Positions 22,332-32,261 of a stretch of DNA of 36,610 nucleotides are shown here, in pieces (position 1 is the first letter of the stretch; every line of letters begins with the position of its first letter). The position numbers and the translations under genes were made by a program. Under the pieces are notes generated by a model. That model made no database searches. It was not told the DNA's origin and saw nothing but the letters and a program-made list of their open reading frames with translations. This DNA is from Saprospiraceae bacterium (GTDB lineage Bacteria > Bacteroidota > Bacteroidia > Chitinophagales > Saprospiraceae): assembly GCA_018224445.1 (NCBI GenBank), contig JAGTVA010000113.1, positions 1 through 36,610 of the forward strand, written 5' to 3'.

Positions 22332-23003
22332 ATGACTAGTGAGTTTTTAAATAAAGAGTACTTAATTCAGCGATTCAGAAATGAAGGTCTTGATTCGTAC
22401 CGCTCAATTGTTGAATTTTACGAAATACACGCTGTAGAAATTAGACAATTGGAATTCGAGGATTTTTTTGACATCTACGTTGAATACGCCAATGCCTTGT
22501 ACGAACTGGGTGCACATCACAAATTTATCAAAGAGGCTGATAAGATTGCCGAAATGAGTATTGCCAACAATATTGTCTTTTTTAGGGACAAAGACATCTT
22601 TCAATATTTTCTCAAAAAAAAGGCGGCAGCCCTTTACAATATTGGCTTGTTAGACAGAAGTGAAAAGGTGCTTCGGGAACTGTTGAAAATGGCTCCGGAT
22701 AACAGGGAATACAGAGAATTGTATTATCGTGCCCTCATGAAGCGAAAGAGCGTTTCCAAAATAAATACTAGAATGTACGCCTGCGTATTCTTATTTTTGA
22801 GTGCTGTCGTAATCGGATTTGAATTGTTTTTCATCAGATTATTTATGGAGGACCTCACTTCCACCTTTGAATTGTTGCGCACTAGCTTATTTGTATTTGG
22901 AATTATGTTGTTAGTGATTGCCGAGTTTTCCTCCTGGGTTCACGCAAAAATGAAGGTCGCTGAGGTGGTTGATGAAATCAAAAAAGAAAAAGAGATTAAG
23001 TGA
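22332..23003 (+). CDS. Hypothetical protein, TPR-like helices plus two TM segments
   Basis: Tightly spaced after the cyclase gene; helical repeat followed by TM stretches MYACVFLFLSAVVIGFELFF and LFVFGIMLLVIAEF. Confidence 0.65.
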   Translation: MTSEFLNKEYLIQRFRNEGLDSYRSIVEFYEIHAVEIRQLEFEDFFDIYVEYANALYELGAHHKFIKEADKIAEMSIANNIVFFRDKDIFQYFLKKKAAALYNIGLLDRSEKVLRELLKMAPDNREYRELYYRALMKRKSVSKINTRMYACVFLFLSAVVIGFELFFIRLFMEDLTSTFELLRTSLFVFGIMLLVIAEFSSWVHAKMKVAEVVDEIKKEKEIK

Positions 23004-23169: not shown

Positions 23170-24549
23170 TCAATGGAGGATAACTTCAAAAACCGAATTG
23201 GTGATCCTGGTTCCGGTATCGGGTATTTTAGGCAAGGGGTTTTTGGCTTCAATCCCGCCGTAAATGTAGCCCATGGTGGCTTTACTCCCTTTTTCAAATG
23301 ACGAACGCGATATTACCCCATTATTTAATGCATGGCCATTGACTATTAATTCTGGATTGAGAATAAAATGAGACCCGGTGCCGAGCAATCTATTTTCAGG
23401 GATTGGATTGGGATGAATGTACTCCTTGTATTCAGATACGTCGTTAATTTGAAGTGAAGTAATGTCTGCAATAAAGGGCAATCCATCGTTTCGCCCCTGT
23501 TTGGTTTCCAGGTCGTAAATCACCTTTTGAGGATCTGTTTGAGAAATATAGTAGTGACTGATTCCGCCAAAAAAGGTGTGGTAAACAGCAGCCTCTTCAG
23601 ATTCGTCGTCGTAAATAGAAATTACCGGACATTCGTATTGAGAAAATTTTTGGTTGATACTTCGGTCCAGGACATGGGTCTGTGGACCGTGTATAAAGAT
23701 GGGATAGGTATAAGCTCCGATTTTATCCGGTGGAAAAACTCCACCATAGACCCCAATTCGTTCACTTCCTGTTACGGAATCGATGTCGTTCACTATATTC
23801 AGGTTTCTTCTGTGAAAGGGATGGTCGTATTCCGTATGAGTAGTGGATCCGTAACTTAGAATCTCCAGCTAGTTGGGATTGAGGCTGAAAACTCTGATTT
23901 CCTCGGTGTATTCCTGAGTGAAATCTGTCCTGCCCAAAGCTCCGTTTTGTCCGTCAACCCACTGTCCCATTACCAGGTAAAAGTTATTGTTCAAAACCAA
24001 TAAATCTTCTATGGTCACTGCCAATCGGTCATCTTGCAAATACTCGAAGAGGGATTCAATTTCAGAAATAGCCATACCAGATTTAACCGCTTGAATAAAC
24101 TTTTCTGCGTTCGCGGTAATCAGTGTTCCGAAAGTCTTCATATCGCTCTGATCGGCTTTCCACATGTATCCCCCTATAATATGCAGTATGCCGGACTCCC
24201 TGTGGTAATGGAATTGTTGGTTATTGACTTGTAGAGGAGCGGACAATTCCGATTTGAGCTGATTGACATCAAATGACCATTGGTTCCCTTCATCAATGTC
24301 TAATACAAAAATATAATTATTGGAATTGTCCCGGATAAAGTTATATTCAGGAGCGGGCTTAAAAGTATGCAATCCTTGTCTGAGTCCACCTAAGACCAAT
24401 AGTGCTCCGTCGTTTGGCATAGCGTAAACATACGATTGTCAACGGGGCAACGACATGGAGTTGGAATAGGTCTTTTCTTTGAACTCAAGGGAAAAAGGAA
24501 GCCCCTTATTTATTATCTTTTCTCCTTTTTCCCCCAAAATATATGCTAG
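23170..24549 (-). pseudogene. Inactivated kelch-like/secreted protein gene with at least two in-frame stops
   Basis: ORFs 23869-24420 and 23170-23793 are in the same frame; intervening codons read NPN*LEILSYGSTTHTEYDHPFHRRNLNIVNDIDSVTG with TAG at 23869-23871. Upstream the frame reads GLPFSLEFKEKTYSNSMSLPR*QSYVYAMPNDGALLVLGG with TGA at 24439-24441. Confidence 0.8.
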
Positions 24550-25048: not shown

Positions 25049-25936
25049 ATGGACAACAGTGGATATAAATCCTTTTCTCCTAAAGTTATAAGTTTCTCGG
25101 GACCCTTGTCAGAACTGGTATTTGTGAATGTGTCTAATCTTGGCGTTCAGGTCTTCTTAAAACCATCCAATGTGGGTGAAGACACCTTTTCCTACAAGAA
25201 AAGAAAGTATTTACCAGTTGGCTACAGCCAGGAATTGATTTCTGGCTTGCTCGATTTTTACTTTAAGGAATGTTCAAGAAAGAGACTATTCTATGACATT
25301 GAGATTTGGCCCAATGTTGCCATTGGATTAGAACCTATTATTGGTGCGCTGATAGAAGTTGTTAATCACAGTGAAGAGGATAGTCTGGAGTCTGATGCAC
25401 TTTTAAAACTCACCTTAAAGTGGTCAGAATCTATTCTTCAAGAATTAAATCCGAAAGTATTGGTGACCTCCTTTTTAGGTGGGATTCGAATTTTTGTTGG
25501 AGAAGCTATTGGCGATCACTTTAGGGAACGTTTTCCCAAAGGTTTTGAATTGGTTCTGCTCTATTCAGTTGATGGATTTAATAAGGATGTATTTAATTCA
25601 AATACGGCTTTGGTCTACAACACCAGGAAAGTTGCCTCCTTTTTGAAGGGACTTTTTTACGGAAAGATTGATCTTTTACATCTTGGGATGAGTGTTGATT
25701 TAGATAATGGATTTATTGACTCTGATCATATTGATTCATTCTTTTGTCGTACTGCTATTCAATTTGAATGTATTGGTTTGGGGTTGACTGACGATTCCCA
25801 TTTTCTGTACAGTGTTTTTCCCAACAGTTTAAAGTCTGATGATTTTTATAAAGAGCTTAAAAACTTTTTCGAAAAAAACCGCAGGTATAAAGTTTACCAA
25901 AACACTGTAGATGAAAGAGGAGTTCTGGTTACCTGA
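25049..25936 (+). CDS. Divergent GHMP-fold protein resembling homoserine kinase, catalytic motifs apparently lost
   Basis: Collinear resemblance to ThrB: VTSFLGGIRIF (cf. APxLLGGFxLI), FLKGLFYGKIDLLHLGMSVD (cf. LISGLYTGDYDLIGRSMQDV), FECIGLGLTDDSHFLYSV (cf. ALGFGISGSGPSVFSL), terminal DERGVLV. Start set to ATG 25049. Confidence 0.6.
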   Translation: MDNSGYKSFSPKVISFSGPLSELVFVNVSNLGVQVFLKPSNVGEDTFSYKKRKYLPVGYSQELISGLLDFYFKECSRKRLFYDIEIWPNVAIGLEPIIGALIEVVNHSEEDSLESDALLKLTLKWSESILQELNPKVLVTSFLGGIRIFVGEAIGDHFRERFPKGFELVLLYSVDGFNKDVFNSNTALVYNTRKVASFLKGLFYGKIDLLHLGMSVDLDNGFIDSDHIDSFFCRTAIQFECIGLGLTDDSHFLYSVFPNSLKSDDFYKELKNFFEKNRRYKVYQNTVDERGVLVT

Positions 25937-25955: not shown

Positions 25956-25971
25956 TGTTTCACGTGAAACA
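25956..25971. promoter_or_regulatory. parS site (ParB/Spo0J binding)
   Basis: Perfect 16-bp palindrome TGTTTCACGTGAAACA, matching the established parS consensus. Confidence 0.92.
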
Positions 25972-26018
25972 TTATTGGTTTTTATATAGTTTTGTGGTGA
26001 TGGTGTAGGTCACGCAAT

Positions 26019-26047
26019 TGGGTTATTTCGACTTCGCTCAATACCCA
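26019..26047. repeat. Hairpin element, arm A of a mirrored pair
   Basis: TGGGTTATT-tcgacttcgctc-AATACCCA. Confidence 0.65.
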
Positions 26048-26130
26048 TTGGGTGAATTGTAAATTGTAGAGGTTTTAATATTTCTTAAATTCTTAATAAT
26101 TTCCATAATAACTATAAATTTACAAGGTAA

Positions 26131-26158
26131 GGTGTATTGAGCGGAGCCGAAATACACC
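26131..26158. repeat. Hairpin element, arm B of a mirrored pair (inverse orientation)
   Basis: GGTGTATT-gagcggagccga-AATACACC; its reverse complement ATTTCGGCTCCGCTCAATAC matches arm A ATTTCGACTTCGCTCAATAC at 18/20. Confidence 0.75.
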
Positions 26159-26164
26159 ATGATT

Positions 26165-26180
26165 TGTTTCACGTGAAACA
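26165..26180. promoter_or_regulatory. parS site (ParB/Spo0J binding)
   Basis: Second perfect TGTTTCACGTGAAACA; palindrome extends to 20 bp (26163-26182). Confidence 0.92.
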
Positions 26181-26286: not shown

Positions 26287-26294
26287 TAATTTTG
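26287..26294 (+). promoter_or_regulatory. Bacteroidota-type -7 element TAnnTTTG
   Basis: TAATTTTG upstream of a non-coding structured segment. Confidence 0.4.
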
Positions 26295-26299
26295 TGGCA

Positions 26300-26540
26300 C
26301 TCTGGATTTTTTATTACTGAGTTTAGATGGCAAACCTATGTGGGACTTTAGCGGAAGTAATAAAGGTCTTGGGTGGGACGCAGCATTCGTAATCCGTTAT
26401 GTCTGGTAGTGTGGTCCTGAGGACACAAGCCTCAACCCATCCCGTAACTTTTTAAACTGCTGTGTGAACCTGCTTTACCTATATGGTGGTATAGAACCCT
26501 ACGGTTACCCACGAAAGAGCCTGGCTGATAAAAAAATCAT
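26300..26540 (+). ncRNA. Candidate structured non-coding RNA, family unknown
   Basis: No credible ORF; end pairing GATTTTTTAT (26305-26314) / ATAAAAAAATC (26528-26538), TGGGT/ACCCA (26370-26374/26435-26439), GTCC-TGA-GGAC hairpin (26414-26424). Confidence 0.3.
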
Positions 26541-26895
26541 TAAATATACCTGCTGTAAATATAAGCTTACAGCTTTTATACTTGCCTTGCTTTTGCATGC
26601 ATAAAAGTTTTGAAGGGCACAGCCAGTTAAATTCTCTGGAGAGAAATAGTGGTAATTTTAATCTGCTAAACAGTAAGTTTTGCACAGTCTACACAATCAG
26701 TAACTTCATTTACTTTTTTAAAGGTAAACAGATTTCTATTTTTAATCTAAAAATAGTAAGAGAAAAAAGAGGGAATTGAGTGCTCTGGTAACTGGAATAC
26801 CCTCAATAGATAGAGTGTCCGGCTATATTTTAGTCAAGCCAAGTTTATTACAGTCCGCAGGACTGTTAAAGTAAGTCAGTCTTTCCGGCAGGAGA

Positions 26896-27120
26896 TTATG
26901 AAGTACTCACCTGCTCTGCCTGATTCAGGGTTTTAATGGTAATTGCACCTCCAATGATTAATAATACCACACTGACAATTACCGGTGTCAGATTGGATGT
27001 ACTCATCCCGAGGTAGAACCCAAGGAAATTGTAAATTTCAGAAGACTGAAGGGCCTGTGGCCCAAAAATAAAGGTACCTATTAAGCCTAAAATCAAAAAG
27101 ATAAGTCCAATCGCTTTCAT
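26896..27120 (-). CDS. Small two-TM membrane protein (DUF3185-like)
   Basis: MKAIGLIFLILGLIGTFIFGPQALQ...TPVIVSVVLLIIGGAITI; start at internal ATG 27118-27120. Confidence 0.6.
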   Translation of the reverse strand: MKAIGLIFLILGLIGTFIFGPQALQSSEIYNFLGFYLGMSTSNLTPVIVSVVLLIIGGAITIKTLNQAEQVSTS

Positions 27121-27584
27121 GGTTCTATGGTTTTGTTTGAAACCACAATATACATAAACCTTTAATAAAATCATAATAAAAACATAAAAAAATTAAAAAA
27201 AAGTTAAATAACCCAAAAATTTTGTACATTTAAGATCGATGGATATTTGATTTAAAAAGGAGGTAAAGATTTATTTTTAGGCTGTAATGTTCGTCTAATA
27301 CCCCCAATCACCCAGGTTGAAACACCTACCTGAATTACCAATATTGCGCTCCGTTCATTCTTATTTCTTCCAAGTTAGGTTACAGTGGAATTGCATTGCA
27401 GTTCAGAAACACCGCCTAAGCTTAAATCATTTGTCCCGGATTACATACTTATCCGGATAATTGAACTATCTTTGCGGCATATTTGAACAATTGCAGAGAA
27501 CTACCCACTCCAATTATTTTTTCAGGATCATTTATTTGTTGATTAACCCCACCTTGAAATGGTCATTTTCATTAAACATTATAC

Positions 27585-31875: not shown

Positions 31876-32261
31876 TATGTGCATAATAGAGTAGTTGATG
31901 GGCTTGTGTGTTGCGGTTAGAAGTGCAGAAGGATATATACTCACCACACGTGTCTGCGCCCTTGCCAATCCTGTGGGGTGGTAAACCCATAGGAATTCTC
32001 TTTTATGGAAGCAGCCAAGTTGCTATTCCATTGGGTGCACCCGGTGGAATCCACTTTGTGAAATGCTTTGCCATTGTCATTTTTAACTTTCAATTCCCTC
32101 ATTGGCATTACCCCGAATGCTTATTAACTTCCTCCCAAACTTCTTCTTTTCCAAATCCGGATTAACCCCTACTGTTAGCATTCACCTGCCCAAACTTACA
32201 CATTTCCAATCAAGTCTAAAGGGCTTTTTAGTATTTTATCAGTCCAGTAAGGGTTTTTAAA

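Follow-up and report, generated by a model that had tools for sequence, protein, structure and literature searches.

The 36,610-nt window analysed here (positions 1 to 36,610 of contig JAGTVA010000113.1, assembly GCA_018224445.1, from a Saprospiraceae bacterium) carries two exact parS palindromes and, between them, an inverted hairpin dimer; with a probability of about 0.9, we read the palindromes as a standard ParABS centromere and the dimer as the arrival of a dispersed repeat with no part in that centromere. The gene beside the pair, gene X, probably descends from the homoserine kinase gene thrB, a usual parS neighbour in this family. The relatives of a TPR-like gene in the window, as found by a search of genome contigs, are Saprospiraceae/Saprospirales MAGs; the host lineage is suggested to be a Saprospiraceae genus of soda-lake MAGs, with isolate names that point to a sediment or mat origin. 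The features of the locus are collected in Table 1.

Table 1. Features of the parS locus and its upstream neighbours (window coordinates; a full stop marks features without a strand).
Feature	Position	Strand	Remarks
TPR-like gene	22332..23003	+	directly beside parS in six congeners; here about 1.9 kb from gene X
Gene X	25049..25936	+	probably ThrB-derived, catalytic motifs lost; parS-associated in the genus
parS site 1 (putative)	25956..25971	.	perfect 16-bp palindrome; starts 20 bp past the gene X stop
REP/BIME-like hairpin, copy 1	26019..26049	+	core TTCGACTTCGCTCAA at 26027-26041; imperfect outer stem GGGT-T-ATT/AAT-ACCC
9-bp inverted repeat TTGTAAATT/AATTTACAA in the spacer	26057..26125	.	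chance level
REP/BIME-like hairpin, copy 2	26129..26159	-	core at 26137-26151; perfect 8-bp outer stem GGTGTATT/AATACACC
parS site 2 (putative)	26165..26180	.	perfect 16-bp palindrome
Two-way terminator candidate, stem-loop GCTGTAAATATAAGCTTACAGC	26552-26573	bidirectional	from the terminator scan; inside a 700-bp gene-free stretch

Results

A parS pair and its ParABS context

Both palindromes are TGTTTCACGTGAAACA with 0 mismatches, and their starts lie 209 bp apart with an intervening gap of 193 bp, exactly as a first-pass annotation of this DNA had described them. The parS consensus used for comparison is reportedly that of Livny et al. 2007. Copies in the host genome were counted by pattern searches, and the genome-wide scan that the annotation had proposed returned no further TGTTTCACGTGAAACA at ≤2 mismatches beyond the window pair; since the 2.49-Mb draft is fragmented (208 contigs) and 85.6% complete, additional sites could be missing from this count. 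The chance expectation for an exact TGTTTCACGTGAAACA in the draft is about 0.001 copies. The host genome also has parA and parB next to each other on another contig (C1), with a ParB that scores 186 bits to TIGR00180, and the GERRWRA and ENIQR motifs are present in this operon.

The pattern TGTTYCACGTGRAACA was present in 292 of 398 Saprospiraceae genomes (73%); as a negative control, the reversed pattern was present in one genome. Among the pairs listed for the family, the spacing is mostly 30-200 bp, and the usual neighbours are thrB, thrC, an M1 peptidase gene and an alpha/beta hydrolase gene, while mnmG often adjoins parS in other families of the order. One further Saprospiraceae genome carries an array of seven parS sites spaced by about 90-110 bp (G198:C18:31471-32086). 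In twelve gut bacteria, including two Bacteroidetes, clusters of parS were found at origins using the same consensus with two mismatches allowed (PMC10197239).

The position relative to the replication origin was read in relatives of the host. In the single 7.58-Mb contig of G275, a parS pair lies beside thrB at 6,125,700, where the GC skew changes sign nearby. The cumulative GC-skew minimum of the stretch read is at 6,094,494, with 11 DnaA boxes at 6,093,624-6,094,343, so that about 31 kb separate parS from the DnaA-box cluster at the skew minimum. A 161-kb contig of the congener G005 has its skew minimum about 17 kb from the parS pair, and it also carries parB, about 89 kb from the pair. Both relatives are consistent with an origin-proximal parS. 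Taken together, because the sites are exact and unique in the draft, the parA-parB operon is canonical, the pattern is conserved in the family and a relative has it near the origin, the pair is read as an ordinary ParABS centromere; the earlier identification of the palindromes as parS is well supported, and they are putative ParB-binding sites whose binding and function are predicted from sequence.

The hairpin dimer in the parS spacer

The cores of the two hairpins match at 18/20 in opposite orientation, as the first-pass annotation had noticed, and they are part of a longer inverted pair of two 31-nt arms that are complementary at 25/31 positions. An inverted repeat this good arose in 6 of 300 dinucleotide shuffles of the 193-nt spacer, which is moderately above chance and not extraordinary. 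The predicted RNA fold of the spacer has a z-score of -4.2, and when folded as single-stranded DNA the entire parS-to-parS stretch is unusually stable (z -6.3), with a contribution from the palindromic parS sites. Elsewhere in the window, 193-nt tiles near 32232 and 36285 hold inverted repeats as strong as that of the parS spacer. At the gathering threshold, Rfam gave no match in the window; a permissive search around the locus returned sub-threshold hits only, most of them from models of miRNA type aligned on the inverted repeat. The stretch 26290-26540 was rejected as a structured RNA (fold z -0.24, with the region unconserved in relatives).

We found that the core TTCGRCTNCGCTCAA occurs in relatives of the host, with 104 copies in G010, a genome of the same family, 10 in G029, 5 in G008 and 2-4 in each of three congeners, and that these copies are frequently clustered or paired, inverted pairs included. 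The earlier suggestion that the core is a common intergenic element of Bacteroidota therefore holds at least for some Saprospiraceae. In the host genome the exact copies are the window pair only, with weak one-mismatch matches elsewhere, so the dispersed nature of the element rests on the relatives. Comparison of 43 copies showed an invariant core and variable outer stems (31 distinct arms), in which 6.44 of 8 positions form Watson-Crick pairs compared to 4.66 ± 0.17 when the right arms are re-dealt, indicating covariation. REP/BIME-type repeats behave in this way, with a constant core and varying complementary stems (PMC3733652). No Y1 transposase (Y1_Tnp) was found in the host genome, and the relatives' Y1_Tnp genes have no core copy at a distance of 1.5 kb or less; since this link is missing, we use the term REP/BIME-like and do not class the element as a RAYT-dependent REP. 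A literature search found no published name or occurrence of the hairpin core.

The dimer sits between gene X (+) and the converging gene at 26896-27174 (-), and it might act as a bidirectional terminator or a stabiliser of mRNA 3' ends that excludes RNA polymerase from the zone where ParB loads; the first-pass annotation had likewise considered a block to transcription into the locus. The strong RNA fold of the spacer fits such an activity, and effects of REP/BIME elements on termination and mRNA stability have been hypothesised (PMC3733652). However, neither hairpin is followed by a T-tract, a scan for terminators was negative at 26019-26159 yet returned its only two-way candidate at the position listed in Table 1, and the element is absent from the parS loci of relatives, so that we consider this explanation unlikely.

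Layout of the hairpins and the parS sites

The first-pass annotation had proposed that the nested arrangement is an organised unit that could shape ParB loading. A single higher-order cis element of this kind, acting on ParB loading or spreading, would be in line with the nested inverted symmetry around 26089-26091 and with the very stable single-strand DNA fold to which the parS palindromes contribute. The two symmetries are not concentric, however: the centre of the parS pair is at 26068 and the dyad of the hairpins at 26089, an offset of 21 bp, with gaps between hairpin and parS of 47 bp on one side and 5 bp on the other. The inner 9-bp inverted repeat exists as it was first described, but when the spacer 26050-26128 was shuffled 500 times, 185 of the shuffles did at least as well, which places it at chance level. 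In addition, among 59 parS loci of relatives, fetched by an exact or one-mismatch parS, none has the core within 1.5 kb, and the core is plentiful elsewhere without parS. A joint cis element is therefore highly improbable, and neither the organised unit nor its effect on ParB loading was borne out.

The nested layout appears to be incidental, given that the hairpins are a dispersed repeat, that the 59 other parS loci lack them, that the dyads are offset by 21 bp and that the inner repeat does not exceed chance. The hairpins most likely landed between the parS sites by chance, and we infer that they have no role in ParB-parS function. The annotation had itself allowed that the symmetry might be chance and had named many hairpin copies unlinked to parS, or a layout unconserved in relatives, as what would make it incidental; in the relatives, the core is abundant without parS and the layout is not conserved.

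Gene X, a ThrB-related neighbour of parS

Pfam gave no significant hit for gene X, and a direct PDB sequence search gave nothing meaningful. Profile comparison with ThrB of the family gave a full-length alignment (hhalign probability 97.8, E 1.2e-12). A structure model from an alignment of six gene X rows only is of low confidence (pLDDT 56), and its top PDB match is still the homoserine kinase 4p52; with ThrB rows in the alignment the model is confident, with a pLDDT of 87 and a TM-score of 0.81 to 4p52, and because of these rows it is not independent of the ThrB homology. Gene X lacks the GSGxGSSAAS and SGAGPS kinase motifs and is undetected by TIGR00191; since both motifs are absent, it is by sequence ThrB-derived and not an active ThrB. 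Seven genomes of the genus were searched, of which four are 92-99% complete, and none yielded a TIGR00191 ThrB above cut-off or the Thr_synth_N domain of ThrC.

The dN/dS of gene X in two congener pairs is about 0.21, a rough value since synonymous sites are near saturation, which is above that of neighbouring genes and clearly constrained, and the homologues of this fast-evolving gene are under purifying selection. In five congeners (G001, G003, G004, G005 and G007) gene X is bracketed by two parS sites, which sometimes abut stop codons; in a sixth, G006, the contig ends inside gene X. A 244-aa gene beside the parS of G019 resembles gene X at the N-terminus, but it was rejected as a further gene X, as profile comparison gave no support. 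In congeners gene X directly adjoins the TPR-like gene, and in the window there is no parS on the TPR-proximal side of gene X. Two minus-strand ORFs (23170-23793 and 23869-24420), which look repeat-protein-like by eye and are perhaps one broken gene, separate the TPR-like gene from gene X here and are absent from this place in congeners.

Gene X thus probably descends from thrB, as judged from profile and model comparison, and the simplest reading is that this thrB stayed where it was ancestrally, next to parS, and has since taken on another function or is in slow decay. Any involvement with ParB would be speculation. One rather doubtful reading takes gene X for a pseudoenzyme of ThrB descent that, once threonine synthesis had been lost from the genus, was recruited at the origin-proximal centromere and retained through a tie of its expression or product to ParB-parS; in that case it might be a ParB-regulated gene or a factor in segregation or replication control. 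That the palindromes are instead sites for another dimeric regulator of gene X can be practically dismissed: they lie near a gene end and, in congeners, flank gene X, but they match the parS consensus exactly in a genome that has parAB, and what is conserved is their place beside a variety of genes (across the order mnmG; within the family thrB, thrC and the M1 peptidase gene), not an association with gene X.

Discussion

With the pair read as a ParABS centromere, ParB would load at both parS sites and spread like a clamp over the neighbouring DNA, and ParA would separate the origin regions. Two close parS sites are a frequent arrangement in Saprospiraceae, and the pattern may have shifted within the genus, as the congeners have sites flanking gene X and the host has both sites downstream of it and none upstream. 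The inverted hairpin dimer would be a lineage-specific insertion into gene-free DNA between converging genes, presumably a location where such repeats do little harm.

These results would place the centromere of the poorly studied and largely uncultured Saprospiraceae at the thrB-thrC/M1 peptidase locus, and the distance of about 31 kb between parS and oriC in one relative could aid in finding origins in draft genomes. They also suggest that a seemingly designed symmetry can arise through repeat insertion. The retention beside parS of a homoserine kinase relative without its motifs raises the testable question of why it persists.

Compared to homoserine kinase ThrB (TIGR00191, GHMP superfamily), gene X differs in its lost motifs, with ThrC undetected in the genus, and shares the full-length profile match and the location beside parS; its predicted fold is closest to ThrB of Cytophaga hutchinsonii (4p52). 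Compared to REP/BIME elements, the hairpin dimer is not matched by a flanking Y1 (RAYT) transposase, whereas it shares the short imperfect palindromes, often paired in opposite orientation at a distance of tens of bp, the invariant core with variable stems and, in relatives, the dispersion. Compared to the parS sites of chromosomal ParABS systems, the host differs in that only two sites were found, away from the parAB contig and with a REP-like dimer between them; it shares with these systems the exact 16-bp consensus, the few clustered sites, the parAB genes in the genome and, as seen in a relative, the origin-proximal position.
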